From Aldrovandia affinis (Eukaryota > Chordata > Actinopteri > Notacanthiformes > Halosauridae): DNA of 64,000 nt. Positions 2,289-60,910 of the stretch are shown piece by piece. The translations under genes were made by a program, and so were the position numbers. Location of the stretch: NCBI GenBank assembly GCA_029706075.1, contig JAINUG010000055.1, positions 3,505,885 through 3,569,884 on the forward strand, given 5' to 3'. Every line of letters begins with the position of its first letter. Position 1 is the stretch's first letter. A model generated the notes under the pieces. It was given only the letters and a program-made list of their open reading frames with translations, was not told the origin of the DNA and did no database searches.

Positions 2289-4016
2289 TTCCAAATGGGA
2301 AAACTAAACAATAAGGCCATTTAAGTCGGCAGCGATGCGCACAGGCTGCCATGTTTCCAGAAAGAATGCGTTTCTTGGCCAGTTGTTGCAATGTGTGTTG
2401 AGTCAGATAAGCGGAAGCAACATATGTTTCAGCCCCTGATCCGTATAATAAAGGCACAATAAAAAAGAGGGGGGGTTGGAAGAAAAAGAAAACACCAAGG
2501 AAGTGTTTAATAAATGCACGTGTTTTACCCCAAACTAGATATTCCCTTTCTGAGGGTTTTTTTCTTCTTCCGCAAATGTCTGTTCTTTGGACATGCAACA
2601 TTAAATATTCAGATGAAAACAACAAGTCGAGTAGTTTTTTTTATTTTTTATGAAACTGGGTCGTTCACTGGAAAAATTGCATTCGTTGCCAAAAAGAGCA
2701 CAGCCGTACACAGAACACAAAGTAAATTGCAAACAAACCACCAACAACAACAACAACAACAACAAACAAACAAAAAACTATCCTACGGCACTTCCTTCAA
2801 TCGACTGCGCTTCTCTGTAAACGTGTTTATTTAGACATGAAGTGAAATGTCTCACTCTCGTTCGTTCATGTTTGTTTGAACGGGAGTGTTGCGTACAGTA
2901 TAGCTGTCAGCATCAAAATGAGCACCGGGGTCTTTGCATGGAGACAGCGGCTGAGTTATTCTGAAGTAAGATCCTGACAGCAGGGCGTCTGAACTAGCAC
3001 GTGGTCCCCTCCCCCGAGCCGCCACGCGTCTCTCCCTGTGAGCTCGTTCACTCCACCGAGTGGAGAACACATTCCTGTTGCTGGAGACCCCGGCAAGGAA
3101 GAATAAGACTGATCTTCTGAGTGGATCGTACTGGAGGTTTGATTTTTATAGTCTGACTTGAATTAGTGAAGGCTGTATGTTTGAAATGATTTTACATCCA
3201 CCTGTCTGTTCTGTTTTCTCTCTCTCTCCCCCCTCCTCCCTCCCTCCCAACCGCTCCCAAGAAGGATATAGGTACGTCTCTCTCCCTCTTTCGATCACAC
3301 TCTCTTTCTCTGCCTCTCTCCTCCTCTCTTTCGCTCAATTCATTTACTTTCCATGAACCAGAGCAGTATTGCCAAAGCACATACAAAACATGCAAAGTAT
3401 GACATTTAATATACGGAATTATGACATTCTTCGGTGAACATAATAATTACAATAATATGATTGTAATGATAATAATAAAATGTACAGTTAGTAAAACAAA
3501 AGTAAACAGGTAGTTAACAACTACATGGATTGATTGATCTCTCTCCCCCCCCTCCCTCACTCTCTCTTTCTCCCTCTCCATAGAAGGTCAGGAATTCTTA
3601 ACGCATGCAGGTCTTAGAACACTTCCGGTCATTTTCAGTAATGAGTGGACTCTGGGCTCTATTTTGTGTCGACTGATGTGTCCGACTAATTATGTGGTCA
3701 GTTTGAGCAAACTAGACCTCAATGTTCAATTCAAATCTTCAGGATCTTCAGTATCCTGGCTCAACTATTTCAATAGTGACCCAGATAAAAATGTCACATT
3801 TCACCTGAGGGATACATTTTCATAATACAAGTAGTCAATAACATTGCTTCACTAATTATTCAGTTGTGAAAATTCAAAACCAATTCGAATCTGACGCGAA
3901 ACACTGTGACATAATAATGTAATTTAATTTAGAGACATTGTAATTTGTTTGAAAAATGTAAGCTGCATCACCAAAATGTTGACGGTTTATTATGCTGAAA
4001 GTAACAGCTTGCTCCA
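2289..4016. other. Unassigned stretch with simple repeats
   Basis: No gene recognised. It holds a CAA microsatellite passing into CAAA (2742-2776), CT-rich tracts (3218-3335 and 3538-3580), and AT-rich DNA with ATAAT runs around 3440-3480. Confidence 0.4.
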
Positions 4017-4265
4017 GGCTTATAACAGAGCAGTATAGCACTGGCACACAAGGCTTATAACAGAGGAGTCTACGACTGACACACAAGGCTTCTAAAAGAC
4101 TGGACTTAGACTGGCACACAAGGCTTATAACACAGTGGTCTACGACTAGCACACAAGGCTTATAACACAGTGGTCTATGACTGGCACACAAGGCTTATAA
4201 CAGAGTGGTCTACCACAGGCACACAAGGCTTATAACGGAGTGGTCTACAACTGGCACATGAGGCT
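4017..4265. repeat. 35-bp minisatellite, about 7 units
   Basis: The motif GGCTTATAACAGAGTGGTCT and its variants restart at 4017, 4052, 4087, 4122, 4157, 4192, 4227 and 4262, an exact 35-bp period throughout. Units differ by scattered substitutions without length change. The 105-codon minus-strand frame across it is a by-product: 35 is not a multiple of 3, so the three frames simply alternate. Confidence 0.95.
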
Positions 4266-4674
4266 AGCCAGACCTAAGCTATGACAAAATATTTCAGAGT
4301 GGTCTTCCCCTCACCAAGATGCAAATAGTAATTCCCTGTCTCTCCACATTTGAATTATTTTTCCAGATAAGTGTCGTTACAATTACAGAACAGGCCTAAA
4401 GCAGGAACCAAGGGCAACGCTGCTCCATCTTTAATTCACAGGAATCTATATTTAATTTCTTCTAAATTATGAATTCCTGTAAAGCAACAGAGACACACAC
4501 TCTGTGTTGTTGAGTTAAATGCATTTAGACGTCATGTAGACTTTTGATAACATTCCTAAAAACATTCCTCAAAGCAGGATATTACGATATAATAAACAAA
4601 TGTAATGCATTTTGATTCGAGTTTATACATTTATAGCAGCTATGATCATGACACTGTGGAGGGCGTCAGTCTCG
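4266..4674. other. Unassigned, AT-rich
   Basis: No gene or named repeat recognised between the minisatellite and the composite repeat. Confidence 0.3.
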
Positions 4675-4950
4675 GCCACATGGGAGTGGCAGGGTTGCCT
4701 TTGTTTTTACATGTTGTGGAGGCCTTTGGAGCAGGGAGACTTTCCGGGGGCAGGTTTGGCACTCAAAGGCCATAATTGATTTAATTATTATTTAATTGAT
4801 GTTAATTGGTAAGTGATTATTCACTTACCTGCTTGTGTGTGAGAATGTGAGTGGGTGTGGTCTGTCAATTGTTTGGTGTTTTGTGATTAGGTGTGTGAAT
4901 GTTAGATGGGTGATTGCCTCACGAGTCCCACCTGAGCCAGGCAGTAAGCC

Positions 4951-4958
4951 TATTTAAG
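4951..4958 (+). promoter_or_regulatory. TATA-type box in composite repeat
   Basis: TATTTAAG followed by a G-rich stretch; the same box and surroundings recur on the minus strand in copy 2 near 14935-14942. Transcription would be expected to start about 25-30 bp downstream, near 4980-4988, just before the GTTAGTC repeats. Promoter activity is inferred. Confidence 0.45.
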
Positions 4959-5032
4959 AGCAGGTGGGGCGAGTGGAGAATCAGTTAGTTAGTCTTTTGT
5001 CTTGTCATTCATGTGTATGTATCAAGAGTATC

Positions 5033-5081
5033 CATTCATTCATTCATTCATTCATTCATTCATTCATTCATTCATTCATTC
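5033..5081. repeat. ATTC microsatellite
   Basis: About twelve perfect tandem CATT units, located inside composite repeat copy 1. Confidence 0.97.
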
Positions 5082-5296
5082 AGATGTGTAGTGTAAAGTT
5101 AGTTTGTCTTTGTCATTTATGTGTGTGTTTCCAGAGAGTTAGTCTTGTCTTGTCATTGATGTGTGTGCCTTGAGAGTTAGTCTTTGTCTTGTCATTGTGT
5201 GTGTATCTTGGAGAGTTGTGAATCTTTGTGTGGTCATTCGTGTGTGGGAGTGCGCGAGCACGTATATTGTGGAGTGTTGGTGTTTGATGTGACTCT

Positions 5297-5345
5297 GTCG
5301 GGCATGGTGGCGCGTGTCTGTAATCCAAGCTTCTGGGAGGCGGAG
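5297..5345 (+). ncRNA. 7SL (SRP) RNA 5'-end-like sequence in a repeat
   Basis: These 49 nt align with the remembered vertebrate 7SL 5' end, about 41 of 50 positions by hand, with one gap. Matching blocks include GGTGGCGCGTG (7SL loop and internal A-box region), CTGTAATCC (region of the SRP9/14-binding turn) and GGGAGGC. Similarity stops after the GGAG at 5345, so only the first part of the Alu domain is present and no B-box or S domain is seen. It is a fragment or derivative, not a functional SRP RNA gene. The same sequence recurs without a change at 49973-50021. Confidence 0.6.
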
Positions 5346-5764
5346 TCTGTGTGGAATGTTGAGTTATGTGTGCGTTTGTCGAAAGTGAATGAGAAGAGTG
5401 TTTCCTGTGTGTGTGGGAAAGAGGGAGAGGGGGCGCACTAAGAGTGTCCGCCTCTCTCCCTCGGTGTGATTGTGAAAGAGAGTGAGAGGGCGGCCTAAAG
5501 GAGGGTCCGCCTCTCGCCCTCGGTGTGATTGGAAGAGAACTCGCACTCAGGCAGTGGAGAGTGTTTCTGGACAACGGCCCGAGAGCTCTCACTGAAAGAG
5601 TGGAGAGTGTCTCGGGGCTGGTTGCCAGATAACTCTCACTGTGAGGAGTGGCAAGGGTCTCGGTGTGTCTCGTGTCTGGGGGGAGAGACAGAAAAAATAC
5701 AAAATAAATCCAGTCCGTGGACCAAAGAATCCACTCCGTCTCCAGACTGCTCTGTTCCCGTCCA

Positions 5765-13039: not shown

Positions 13040-13192
13040 ATATATGCCATTTAGCAGACGCTTTTATCCAAATTGACTTACAGTAATGAATGCATACATT
13101 TTTTTCATATTATGTGGTCCCAATGGGAATCAAACCCACAACCTAAGCTTTGTCAGCGCCATGCTCTACCTACTGAGCCACACAGAACCATA
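13040..13192 (-). repeat. SINE family A copy (minus strand)
   Basis: Read on the minus strand: tRNA-like head GGTTCTGTGTGGCTCAGTAG, B-box region GGTTTGATTCCCATTGGGA, then ACTGTAAGTC and the tail GGATAAAAGCGTCTGCTAAA. The tail matches the L2 3' end found at 40095 and 47570. It lies directly beside a short AT repeat next to the Tc1-like element. Confidence 0.85.
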
Positions 13193-13334: not shown

Positions 13335-14360
13335 TCAATATTTGGTGTGACCACCCTTTGCCTTCAAAACAGCATCAATTCTTCTAGGTACACTTGCAAA
13401 CAGTTTTTGAAGGAACTCGGCAGGTAGGTTGTTCCAAACATCTTGGAGAACTCACCAAAGATCTACTGTGGATGTAGGCTGCCTCAAATCCTTCTGTCTC
13501 TTCATGTAATCCCAGACAGACTTGATGATGTTGAGATCAGGGCTCTGTGGGGGCCAAACCATCACTTCCAGGACTCCTTGTTCTTCTTTACGCTGAAGAT
13601 AGTTCTTAATGACATTGGCTGTATGTTTGGGGTCGTTGTCCTGCTGCAGAATAAATTTTGGGCCAATCAGACGCCTCCCTGATGGTATTGCATGATGAAT
13701 AAGTATCTGCCTGTATTTCTCAGCATTGAGGACACCATTACTCCTGACCAAATCCCCAACTCCATTTGCAGAAATGCAGCCCCAAACTTGCAAGGAACCT
13801 CCACCATGCTTCACTGTTGCCTGCAGACACTCATTATTGTACCACTCTCCAGCCCTTCGGCGAACACACTGCCTTCTGCTACAACCAAATATTTCACATT
13901 TTGACTCATCAGTCCAGAGCACCTGCTGCCATTTTTCTACACCCCAGTTCCTATGTTTTCGTGCATAGTTGAGTCGCTTAGCCTTGTTTCCACGTCGGAG
14001 GTATGGCTTTTTGGCCGCAATTCTTCCATGAAGACCACTTCTGGCCAGACTTCTCCAGACAGTAGATGGGTGTACCTGGGTCCCACTGGTTTCTGCCAGT
14101 TCTGAGCTGATGGCACTGCTGGACAGCTTCCGATTTTGAAGGGAAGTAAGCATGATGTGTCTTTCATCTGCTGCATGAAGTTTCCTTGGCCGACCACTGC
14201 GTCTACGGTCCTCAACGTTGCCCATTTCTTTGTGCTTCTTCAAAAGAGCTTGAACAGCACATCTTGAAACCCCAGTCTGCTTTGAAATCTTTGCCTGGGA
14301 GAGACCTTGCTGATGCAGTATAACTACCTTGTGTCTTGTTGCTGTGCTCAGTCTTGCCAT
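13335..14360 (-). pseudogene. Tc1-like transposase, near-intact, two crippling changes
   Basis: From the ATG at 14360 (MARLSTATRHKVV) the frame runs to a stop at 13335-13337, 341 codons, the usual Tc1 length. It is interrupted once, by TGA at 13452-13454 where the family has tryptophan (DLW-stop-VLQDVWNNLP). It has paired helix-turn-helix regions (residues ~5-110), the GRPRKL hinge, and a DDE domain: WTDES with first aspartate, LQQDNDPKHT with second, then PDLNIIKSVWD where the usual glutamate (NIIES) is lysine. Downstream residues end KGGHTKY. A longer frame starting at 14402 uses GTG and is not the likely start. The family cuts and pastes at TA; this copy should be inactive. Confidence 0.95.
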
Positions 14361-14415
14361 GGTGTATGACCTGTGACATGAAACTGTCTTCCACAACCTC
14401 ACCTTAGTAGCAGAG

Positions 14416-15234
14416 TGTCACACGCCACGTGACAAACCCTGAATGGGAACAGAGCAGCCAGGAGACGGAGTGGAGTTTGTCGGTCTACGGACCAGATATA
14501 TATATATTTTTTTCTGTCTCTCCCCCCAGACATGGGGAAGAGACAGTGGGAGTAGCAGGTTAACATATAACAAACACAAACACAAACACCCAAATCTTCA
14601 CCCTACTCACCGCGAAGCTTTCGGGTAAAAACAACAAACTAAAATAATCATAATTTATGGGACACCGCGCCTCTTACTCCGGAGTTCCCCTGGAACCTCT
14701 CCAGGCACACACATATCCAGTGACCTTTCAAGTGCTTCCCCCCCATGCATACTGAGACACTCGCCACTCCCCACAGTGAGAGTTCTGGCAACCAGCCCCA
14801 AGAAACTCTCCACTCTTCCAGTGAGAGTTATTGGGCTGTTGCCCAGAAACACTCTCCACTGCCGAGTGCGGCACGCACGCACCCATCGAGACAAAGACAA
14901 AAGACTAACTGATTCCCCACTCACCCCACCTGCTCTTAAATAGGCTTAGTTTCTGCCTGGCTCAGGTGGGACTCGTGAGGCAATCACCCAATTACAATAA
15001 TTCACTCACATTCTCACACAGACACCCAATCAGCCAATTGACTTCCATATCAATTGACTGATTGACACCAATTAAATAATAATTAAACCAATTATGGCCT
15101 TTGGAGCAACCCTCCAGGCGACAGTTCACTCTCACACCCTGTGAGAGTGCCAAACCTGCCCCCGGAAAGTCTCCCTGCTCCAAAGGCCTCCACAACGTAT
15201 AAAACACAGGCAACCATGCCACTCCCACGTGGCT
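14416..15234 (-). mobile_element. Composite repeat family A, copy 2, inside Tc1 element
   Basis: The Tc1 sequence is interrupted cleanly here, so the ends can be read: TGTCACACGCCACGTGACA on the left and GCCACTCCCACGTGGC on the right. Each end is a short hairpin: arms TGTCAC/GTGACA (14416-14434) and GCCAC/GTGGC (15218-15233). The flanks share GAG (14413-14415 and 15235-15237), a possible 3-bp duplication. On the minus strand it carries the TATTTAAG box near 14935-14942 and the same blocks as copy 1, but not the 7SL-like module. There is no open frame of note. It is not a typical LTR, because the 5' end is not TG. Class unknown. Confidence 0.8.
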
Positions 15235-15600
15235 GAGTTTGGCTGTTCCTCACCCAGTTTTAAGCCTCCTACACAGCTCTTTCTGTTTCAGTTAATGACT
15301 GTGTTTCAACCTACATATGAAATTGATGATCATTAGCACCTGTTTGGTATAATTGGTTAATCATGCACCTGCCTATAATCCTACAAAATCCCTGAATTTG
15401 TGCAAGTGTACCTATAAGAATTGATGCTGGTTTGAAGGCAAAGGGGAGTCACACCAAATATTGATTTGATTCAGATTTTTCTTCTGTCGCTCACTTTGCA
15501 TTTTGTAAATTGATCAAAATAAACAATTAAAATTTATATTTTGGAAAGCATTCTTACTTTACAGCATTTCTTCACACCTGCCTAAAACTTTTGCACAGTA

Positions 15601-24399: not shown

Positions 24400-26500
24400 A
24401 TAAGAGAGACTAAAGAGATGTGTTTTTAACCTAGACGTGAAATTGAGACTGTGTCTGGCTCCTTCACAGAGACGGGTAGACCGTTCCACAGTAAAGGAGC
24501 TCTATATGAGAAAGCTCTGCCACCTGCTGTATTTTTTGATATTCTAGGGACTACCAAGTTGCCTGCATCTTGTGAACAAAGCGAATGTGGGGATGTAGGG
24601 ATGAAGTAAATCAGTCAAGTAAGAAGGTGCAAGTCCATGCAAAGTTAAGAGGAGTACCTTATAGTCTACACGATAGTTTATAGGAAGTCAGTGAAGTGAC
24701 GATAACACAGGACTAATGTGCTCATACTTCTTTGTTCTAGTCAGGATCCTTGCAGCAGCATTCTGTACAAGTTGTAGGCTCCTAAGTGAGGTATTGGAAC
24801 AGCCAGACAGTAATGCATTGCAGTAATCTAATCTAGATGTAACAAAGGCATGTACCAATTTTTCTGCATCTATTAATGACAGGAAGCCCTAATTTTGGCA
24901 ATATTCCTCAAGTGAAAAAAGGTTACTCTGGAAATGTTTTTGATGTGACTATCAAATGAGAGACCAAGATCTATAGTAACACCAAGGTATTTTACCACCA
25001 AACTTGCAGCAACAGAGCAACAATCCAGATTCAGAGCTAAATCAGATAACCCACTTCTGAGGTTTTTAGGCCCCAAGACCAACATCTGCCTCCAAGCCTC
25101 CAACTGTTCGAATTGTACTTCGCCAGGTTTCATTGATAGGTATAATTGTGTGTCATCTGTGTTGCAGTGAAAATGTACACCATGTTTACGAATAACATCA
25201 CCGAGTGGCAACATGTAAAGGGAGAACAACAATGGCCCCAAAACAGAACCTTGAGGGACACCATATTCCACCTTGATGTGAGCAGAGGACTCATAATTTA
25301 ACTGCACAAATTGATACCTATCTGACAGGTAGGATTTAAACCAGGAGAGTGCCTGTCCATGCAGTCCAACTAGGTTTTCAAGTCTGCTCAGAAGAGTTTG
25401 GTAGTCTATTGTATCAAATGCAGCACCTAAGTCCAAAAGCACAAGAATAGAGACACATCCACGGTCAGCTGATACCAGTAAGTCATTGACAACTTTAATA
25501 AGAGCAGTCTCAGTGCTATGGTGTTGCCTAAATCCTGACTGAAAAGTTTCATAAATGTCATTTGATTTCAGGAATGAAGTCAGTCTCTGAGCTACAGCTT
25601 TCTCTAGAATTTTAGAAAGAAAAAAAAGATTAGAAATTGGCCTGTAGTTCCTGAGATTTTCGGGGTCAAGGTTTGGTTTCTTTAAAAGTGGCACTTTTTG
25701 AGAATTTGGCATATAGCCTGATGAGAGAGGCAGATTCATAATGTCTAGCATGCGTTGCCGCATAACAGGAAGAAGTTCTTTGACAAGTTTTGTTGGGATT
25801 GGATCGAATTGGCAAGTAGATGGTTTGGAGGACATAACCAATTTAGAAAATTCAGTCCACTCCAGAGCACTAAAAAACTCAAGAGTAGTCATAGGACCCC
25901 TGTCCTGGTAAGCCTGTGCTTTCTGATCAGTGTCCGCTACAGCAGAAGGTGCCATTTTAGTAATTCCATCTCTAATTTTCTCAATCTTCTCAGAGAAGAA
26001 GTTAATGAAATCATTACTATTATAGGCTGCTGGAGGCTTAGCATTGGTTTCAGTATGGTTCTTTGTCAGTTTGGCCACTGTATCAAAAATACATTTCGGA
26101 TTATTCTTATTATGCTCAATCAGATCAGACAAATAGGTTGACCTTGCGGAGGAGAGAGCATATTTGTACTGTACCAGACTGTCTTTCCAGGCAGAATAAA
26201 ATACTTCTAATTTAGTGGATCGCCATTTACGTTCCAACTTGCGAGAAGCTTGTTTAAGAGCACGTGTGTGGTCAGTATACCATGGTGCAAGCTTCTTTTG
26301 GCTAGTTTTTTTCTTTTTGAGAGGCGCAACAACATCAAGAGTGTTGCGCAGGGTGTAATTTAGATTGTCTGTCAGCTGATCAATAGATTGTAGACTAGTG
26401 GGATCCTGATTAACAGTAAATTATTCTTGGAACAGGCTGACAAAGTTCGGTATAGTAGGGGAATTTAGGGAGCGGCTAAAGTAGAACACTGGTTTTGAAC
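24400..26500 (-). pseudogene. L2-clade reverse transcriptase
   Basis: The main open part is 24873-26237 (about 454 codons). Motifs in order: [60 protein letters not shown] (first catalytic aspartate), [13 protein letters not shown], and NTDDTQLY. The family has YADD, so the catalytic aspartates remain but the preceding tyrosine and alanine are changed. Upstream, the frame continues past a TAA near 26420 towards 26500. After 24880 a frameshift leads into SRLDYCNALLSG, LQLVQNAAARILT and further C-terminal motifs to about 24400. The 3' untranslated part follows to 23695. Inactive. Confidence 0.92.
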
Positions 26501-31292: not shown

Positions 31293-31444
31293 CAATATAT
31301 GCCATTTAGCAGACATTTTTATCCAAAGTGACTTACAGTAGTGAATGCATACATTTTTCAGTATATGTGGCCCCCAATGGGAATTGAACCCACAACGTAA
31401 GCGTTGCCAACGCCATGCTCTAACAACTGAGCCACACAGAACCA
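31293..31444 (-). repeat. SINE family A copy (minus strand)
   Basis: Minus strand: GGTTCTGTGTGGCTCAGTTG head, B-box region GGTTCAATTCCCATTGGGG, then ACTGTAAGTCACTTTGGATA and AAATGTCTGCTAAATGGCAT. It is nearly colinear with the copy at 13040. No clear target duplication. Confidence 0.87.
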
Positions 31445-49847: not shown

Positions 49848-50143
49848 GAGAGAGGGAGGCGGACACTATTTCAGTGCGGCCTCTCTCTCCCTTTCCCAGA
49901 CACACACAGGAAGCACTCTACTCAGTCACTTTCGACAAACGCACCAAGAACTCAACATAAACTCCACACAGACTCCGCCTCCCAGAAGCTTGGATTACAG
50001 ACACGCGCCACCATGCCCGACAGAGTCACATCAAACATCAAACACTACACAATACTACACAATAATACACAATAATACACAATAATACACAACAATATGT
50101 GCACGCACACTCACACAAATGAATGACCAGACAAAGACTAACC
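49848..50143 (-). mobile_element. Composite repeat family A, copy 3 (7SL-like module only)
   Basis: Minus strand aligns with 5213-5450 of copy 1: GTTAGTCTTTGTCTGGTCAT, the 7SL-like block, TTCGACAAACGCACC (complement), GGGAAAG and the GTGTCCGCCTC block. A microsatellite-like AATACTACACAATAATACAC run (50048-50095) has expanded. Only this module is present, so it behaves as an independent unit. It ends abruptly in the Harbinger element. Confidence 0.82.
49973..50021 (-). ncRNA. 7SL (SRP) RNA 5'-end-like sequence, second copy
   Basis: Its reverse complement is identical over 49 nt to 5297-5345, within an identical block of 75 nt (49963-50037). Flanks differ by substitutions and indels. It holds GGTGGCGCGTG and CTGTAATCC as in the first copy. 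A derivative, not an SRP RNA gene. Confidence 0.6.
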
Positions 50144-60514: not shown

Positions 60515-60910
60515 TTTTTTAATAGGGATGCTGGGTGGCTCATCCTGTTAAGGCACTGTTCTAGTGTGTGGATGAACCCCACGGTCTGCACCTTGTTAGG
60601 GCACTGTTCTAGTGTGTGGATGAGCTCCACGGTCTGCATCCTGTTAGGTCACTGTTCTAGTGTGTGGATGAGCCCCATGGTCTGCATCCTGTTAGGGCAC
60701 TGTTCTAGAGTGTGAATGGGCCCCACGGTCTGGTATAGAAGCCGGACCGTTCCCGTGCTGACTGTGGTCAGCAGCCCCATGGGGTAACGCATAATTGGCC
60801 ATAGTGTCGCCCAGGGAAGGAGGGATTTCAGTTGGCCAGGCGTCCCGGTCTTATTGCGTGCCAGCGCCAGCTGTTCCATTGGGGCGGCCACAGTACATGA
60901 AGTGTCTTCC
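60515..60910 (+). repeat. SINE family E with amplified head
   Basis: Head GCTGGGTGGCTCATCCTGTT AAGGCACTG resembles a tRNA A-box; the body AGCCCCATGGGG, ATTGG and AGGGAAGGAGGGATTTCAG matches the copy at 20090-20150. Between them a 48-bp unit is repeated four times. No target duplication seen. Confidence 0.6.
60543..60735. repeat. 48-bp minisatellite, about 4 units
   Basis: CTGTTAGGGCACTGTTCTAG recurs at 60545, 60593, 60641 and 60689, an exact 48-bp period; units differ by a few substitutions and have no indels. Because 48 is a multiple of 3, both strands show 16-residue repeated frames (for example VWMSPMVCILLGHCSS). This is a product of the period, not evidence for a protein. Confidence 0.95.

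Follow-up and report, generated by a model that had tools for sequence, protein, structure and literature searches.

A 7SL RNA-derived segment within the long terminal repeat of a non-autonomous retrotransposon of the fish Aldrovandia affinis

Pieces of tRNA and 5S rRNA are known both in the heads of SINEs and in the LTRs of retrotransposons, and 7SL sequences had previously been known in SINE heads only. LTR elements hosting tRNA (Helenus) and 5S rRNA (Ajax and, earlier, Cassandra) sequences have been described as TRIMp3 by Kojima 2024 (PMC10886601); in the accessible text of that paper a TRIM family carrying 7SL sequence is conceivable by speculation, and not found so far. SINEs of 7SL origin occur in hagfish besides Euarchontoglires, according to the accessible part of Kojima 2020 (PMC7245038). 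The range assigned to them by an earlier, sequence-only reading of the DNA analysed here (primates, rodents and tree shrews) has to be widened to include hagfish, and the repeat at issue is an LTR, not a SINE. No report of 7SL sequence in an LTR was found among the titles and abstract openings searched in the open-access literature; an unremarked Repbase consensus may exist.

The family described in this work is a small-RNA-bearing LTR element with a 7SL piece, too long to be a TRIM. As in Helenus, Ajax and Cassandra, to the extent that they are covered by the available text of PMC10886601, the element is non-autonomous, a small-RNA piece resides inside the LTR, and movement plausibly depends on coding partners with the same primer site. 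It differs from them in that the piece comes from 7SL, and in an LTR of more than 1 kb which contains a TATA segment and is probably transcribed by Pol II. TRIM and TRIMp3 elements measure less than about 1,000 bp in total, whereas here the LTR alone spans 1,091-1,503 bp, border to border, in 18 core-bearing rows. A 7SL 5' piece in a dispersed repeat is also typical of SINE1 (Alu, B1, Tu and hagfish SINE1-1_EBu; PMC7245038, accessible part). In SINE1, however, 7SL heads an element moved by LINEs and retains the A and B boxes; here the piece sits in the middle part of an LTR, downstream of the TATA segment, rather than at the head of an element with a LINE-type tail, the target-site duplications are 5 bp long and of integrase type, and only nt 1-45 are secured. 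The family fills the 7SL gap named in the accessible text of Kojima 2024 (PMC10886601), with hundreds of copies residing beside sister LTRs that host another sequence at the same site. It thereby provides a natural comparison for asking if 7SL sequence benefits an element by promoter action, by way of SRP9/14, or in no way, and if host RNAs taken up into the particles of a retroelement can join the element.

The 75-nt block and its 7SL-derived core

The window, that is, the whole stretch of 64,000 nucleotides analysed, carries at 5281-5355 a block of 75 nt which is letter for letter the complement of 49963-50037, exactly as the sequence-only reading had it. Extended without gaps, the match covers 79 nt at 99% identity, and the flanks of the two copies differ by indels, again as claimed. 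The features of the block are the following.

5281..5355, plus strand: the reported block, made of 16 nt of LTR, the 45-nt core of 7SL origin, and 14 nt resembling the LTR right of the core
5297..5341, plus strand: 7SL-derived core (7SL nt 1-45), from the RF00017 match, comparison with the 7SL genes of the same genome, and controls
49977..50021, minus strand: second copy of the core, same sequence as 5297-5341
5301..5310, plus strand: counterpart of the 7SL A box (GGCATGGTGG), from the window letters set against the human and hagfish 7SL box given in the accessible part of PMC7245038
5319..5321, plus strand: UGU motif, counterpart of the SRP9/14 site, from the window letters; UGU is named as the SRP9/14 site in the accessible part of PMC8137916

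A match of 33.8 bits (E 5.7e-7, 801 bases searched) to the Rfam model RF00017 (Metazoa_SRP) spans 5297-5367 and covers only the first ~50 and the last few positions of the model. The gathering score of 70 is missed because only the 5' end of 7SL is present in the block, and the whole-window Rfam scan omits it. At 33.8 against 70 bits, the block is not a 7SL (SRP) RNA gene with full Alu and S domains. Genuine 7SL genes were searched in the genome to which the window belongs (1.22 Gb, 2,576 contigs). At least 22 RF00017 matches over the cut-off were obtained (206.8-280.5 bits; 26 of 19,448 first-look candidates scored), and 16 of the 22 listed reside on contig C25, where a 7SL gene array extends over about 569-727 kb. 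Other 7SL genes (L093-L098) have a distinct 5' domain, nearer to the captured piece. In bacterial and archaeal control genomes, the same model gave sub-cut-off matches in 7 of 14.

The resemblance to the 7SL 5' end proposed earlier is borne out by gapless comparison with the genome's own 7SL genes. The core differs at 5 of 45 positions from L094 and L098 (40/45 match), at 6, 7 and 9 of 45 from L093, L095 and L101, respectively, and at 8 of 45 from the array-type genes (L031, L037, L042, L099, L100, L102). That a G-rich LTR stretch should look like 7SL by chance would agree with a match that is short and below the Rfam gathering score. Yet the local score of the block to the genome's own 7SL is 63, against 27 at most for 415 other window segments, and the core scores 58 and 70, against 36 at most in dinucleotide shuffles (2,000 each). 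These controls rule chance similarity out, and the E value of RF00017 leaves it a vanishingly small probability. Derivation of 5297-5341 from the first 45 nt of 7SL RNA is secure. Extension of the homology through the B box is not accepted: the 7SL-type piece gave P values of 0.05 and 0.30, the hairpin-type pieces described below 0.02-0.42, and homology can be regarded as secured for nt 1-45 only.

The repeat as the LTR of a gene-poor retrotransposon

The block is carried not by a SINE but by the LTR of a non-autonomous retrotransposon. Three LTR copies and a TATA-like segment have been located in the window.

4655..5763, plus strand: LTR copy 1, which has the left border TGTGGAGGGCG at 4655 and lacks the right one (...GTGTGACA)
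49848..50142, minus strand: LTR copy 2, fragmentary and lacking both borders, from window self-comparison and sequence
14416..15237, minus strand: related LTR copy devoid of 7SL core, with GTGTGACA as its right border at 14416
4951..4969, plus strand: TATA-like segment TATTTAAGAGCAGGTGGGG, where Pol II presumably starts on the LTR, from its position and a genome pattern count

LTRs are about 1.1-1.5 kb long, have TGTGG...TGACA ends, and are flanked by 5-bp target-site duplications. The left border is sharp and common to the copies (window position 4655 in the border alignment, 20 loci). In LTR copy 1, likeness to other loci stops at 5762-5763, and the stretch found in other copies after about 5668 is lacking, the right parts being longer elsewhere. 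LTR sequence adjoins the block in 30 of 30 block-selected loci (L001-L030). Both borders were recognized in 22 of 60 loci checked by script; perfect 5-bp duplications flank 18 of these 22, and duplications with one mismatch 2 more, three places occurring twice in the tally (L043 coincides with L021, L061 with L013, and L067 with L017). The tally covers loci other than the two block-bearing window copies, which have no right border. Both the TG...CA ends and the fixed length of the duplications are as in LTR retrotransposons.

Beyond the right border, two loci (L047, L063) have a word similar to TGGTGCCGAAACCCGGGA, resembling a primer site, then an interior of ~300 bp with a purine-rich end, and then a new left border; here two LTRs surround an interior provided with primer site and polypurine tract. 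The downstream LTR hosts the block at 72/75 in L063 and part of the block in L047; the upstream LTR is alignable over its last 116-157 bp only. The primer site, of tRNA type, would presumably fit tRNA-Phe. From borders, duplications, primer site, short interior and second LTR it follows that the element is a gene-poor LTR retrotransposon, left in the sample mostly as solo LTRs. The interior of the LTR appears to be assembled from repeated modules; at 5406-5523 of the window a 59-nt hairpin-like module is found in two copies, 75% alike. The core-less LTR is adjoined at its right border by a 321-codon open frame (13452-14417), presumably a Tc1/mariner transposase.

Coding relatives were sought with the gag-like stretch found downstream of the LTR end at L064 (148 first-look genome candidates, 40 scored). 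The partner sample consists of six loci (L124-L129), L124 being the place of the query itself. All six carry 38-209 bp of the LTR 3' end together with a word resembling the primer site. Pieces read between stops match a SCAN domain in L125 (2.6e-6; 27.6 bits, cut-off 27), a zinc knuckle in L126 (1.6e-5) and a retroviral protease in L128 (3.2e-6); a fourth such piece gave no domain match. The LTRs of L125, L126 and L128 open with a TGTGGAAGGC-like border and measure 355, 359 and 466 bp, respectively. The 7SL core was found in none of the six loci, the truncated LTR of L124 being weakly informative in this respect. The partner, known here from gag and protease pieces, is probably Ty3/gypsy-like. 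The coding partners L125, L126 and L128, of this putative type with a SCAN-like gag, have LTR ends and primer site in common with the 7SL-bearing element, and differ from the window family in the size of the LTR and in the lack of the core. The window LTR is, on this evidence, a much enlarged relative of the LTR of the coding element, with the same ends and a new interior.

Copy number, subfamilies and divergence

With as many as 3 mismatches allowed, a 41-nt core pattern found 521 matches in the genome, of which 98 are exact, and a 41-nt pattern from the TATA segment 2,222 matches; the control was 0 in both cases, the core pattern having been reversed for the purpose. The sequence-only reading had judged that a fish repeat with a module derived from 7SL would be unusual; both the module, in a dispersed repeat, and its unusual character are supported. 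A single segmental duplication behind the two window copies, which would have undone the claim, is excluded, both copies being among the dispersed matches. No exact 30-mer match was obtained in collections of viral and prokaryote contigs, as expected for a fish element.

The core is typical of some LTRs only. At the same site other subfamilies have a CCCC...GGGG hairpin unrelated to 7SL (L080, L081, L082, L087, L091). To the right of the core hairpin-type and 7SL-type LTRs agree in 4 of the 5 hairpin copies (L091 aligns poorly), to the left less clearly. In many LTRs a hairpin of similar make appears again farther to the right. Among loci retrieved by the LTR 5' end (2,531 candidates, 40 scored), 12 of 39 non-window places carry the core, whole or in part, and about 9 the hairpin; in the remaining places the site is deleted, interrupted, or cut by the end of the stretch. 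Among loci retrieved by the LTR 3' end (1,269 candidates, 40 scored), the block is present, whole or in part, in 14 of 30 places, in three of which (L043, L047, L063) it lies in the neighbouring downstream LTR. No SRP match was obtained by cmscan in 16 loci without the full core.

The identity of the two window copies had also been read as a possible sign of constraint, and this suggestion is not upheld. As many as 98 of the 521 matches are exact over 41 nt, and the identity of the two copies is ordinary for the family. The block-selected search returned the best block matches, and the 22 exact 75-mers among 40 scored are uninformative on constraint because copies were chosen by the block. Divergence was determined in 21 copies selected through an LTR end. 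With three partial copies (L083, L085, L055) left out, the sample shrank from 24 to 21 and divergence of the core fell to 4.6%, from 7.0% before; L061 and L062, whose 3' flanks begin alike and which are hence not independent, were both kept. In the core 4.6% of the cells differ (2.5% without CpG), compared to 4.8% in the 16 nt before it, 4.5% (3.4% without CpG) in the 35 conserved nt after it, and 8.4% (8.1% without CpG) in the next 50 nt. The core is kept as well as other good parts of the LTR, not clearly better, and special constraint on the block is rejected, divergence in these copies being no lower than in the neighbours.

Proposed origin and possible role of the 7SL piece

How 7SL sequence entered the LTR can be argued with good, if not full, confidence. 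The 5' end of 7SL RNA (nt 1-~45) has, in the favoured account, been captured, probably once, into the LTR of a non-autonomous element of the presumed Ty3/gypsy sort, and multiplied with it within an LTR presumably transcribed by Pol II. Reverse transcription has probably switched template from LTR RNA to 7SL RNA, run off the end of the 7SL template, and switched back to LTR RNA. Such a template switch is suggested by a captured sequence whose start coincides with the 5' end of 7SL RNA or lies no more than about 3 nt from it, and by the abundance of 7SL RNA in retroviral particles, as stated in the accessible part of PMC4997597. For the capture account the absence of the core in L124 counts little, the LTR being truncated. 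A TATA segment precedes the core by 111-346 nt in 37 of 48 core-bearing loci, and we infer from it that Pol II would transcribe the LTR from this conserved segment, the 7SL fold lying in the transcript leader. At present the piece is most likely a tolerated, folded passenger, recruitment of SRP9/14 coming next and promotion by Pol III last. A 7SL SINE inserted into an LTR, however, would look much like the product of a template switch. A 7SL-derived SINE, now lost or rare, may have landed in the LTR and been trimmed later, a route proposed for TRIMp3 elements in the accessible text of PMC10886601. That all 30 block-selected loci lie in LTR sequence, and that no free 7SL SINE was encountered among the 26 of 19,448 RF00017 candidates scored, makes this origin rather unlikely.

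A pure passenger fits less well with weak signs that the pairing pattern of the 7SL 5' part may have been kept in the core. The piece corresponds to the 5' part of the Alu domain, and contains the UGU motif. Standard pairing holds for 13 of the 14 pairs of the model, both in the core and in array-type 7SL (12 in the L094 type), a figure retained in 4-5% of trials with random substitutions; RNAfold predicts the H3 hairpin both in the core and in array-type 7SL, and the whole model fold in neither. Substitutions are fewer at paired than at unpaired positions (5/420 vs 14/347, p 0.017, the cells not being independent), but p rises to 0.11 once one shared variant is set aside. According to a different view, the piece may have been kept since the RNA of the element would bind SRP9/14 through the Alu-domain fold and reach ribosomes or particles, as has been proposed for Alu RNA and the LINE machinery; SRP9/14 binding is reported as important for Alu retrotransposition in the accessible part of PMC7245038. 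The view is hard to reconcile with a core no better kept than the neighbouring LTR, and lost in part from several copies (L088 and L090 among them). Loop position 34 and position 24, next to UGU, vary among copies, the 3' half of the Alu domain is missing, and hairpin-type LTRs have multiplied without any 7SL piece. Retention through SRP9/14 is for these reasons improbable. Equally doubtful is the broader scenario in which this would be the first known LTR retrotransposon with a 7SL Alu-domain module, kept since the folded RNA recruits SRP9/14, and first acquired from 7SL RNA carried in the particles of the element itself. If true, recruitment of SRP9/14 would constitute, in the LTR pathway, a parallel to the proposed use of LINEs by Alu.

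The piece could alternatively work as an internal Pol III promoter, the element being a 7SL version of the proposed TRIMp3. The counterpart of the A box is present, and 32 of 48 core-bearing loci have a word AGTTCTG, similar to the 7SL B box core, at 59-70 nt from where the core begins. The word, however, belongs to the LTR and is shared by hairpin-type LTRs, and its homology to 7SL is not significant by the P values given above. The first TTTT occurs 152-1,401 nt after the core in the 40 loci that have one, a conserved TATA segment lies upstream of the core, and the LTR alone exceeds the TRIM limit set in the accessible text of PMC10886601. Transcription by Pol III is on the whole very unlikely, and the tolerated passenger remains the preferred reading.

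Other repeats are scattered in the window. At 13041-13180 and 31296-31434 tRNA-like matches lie beside UnaL2 LINE 3' elements, likely two tRNA-headed SINEs with a UnaL2 tail. A 515-codon open frame at 24873-26420 is presumably a LINE reverse transcriptase. Tandem repeats are found at 3981-4300, with a spacing of 35 bp, and at 60541-60732, with a spacing of 48 bp.
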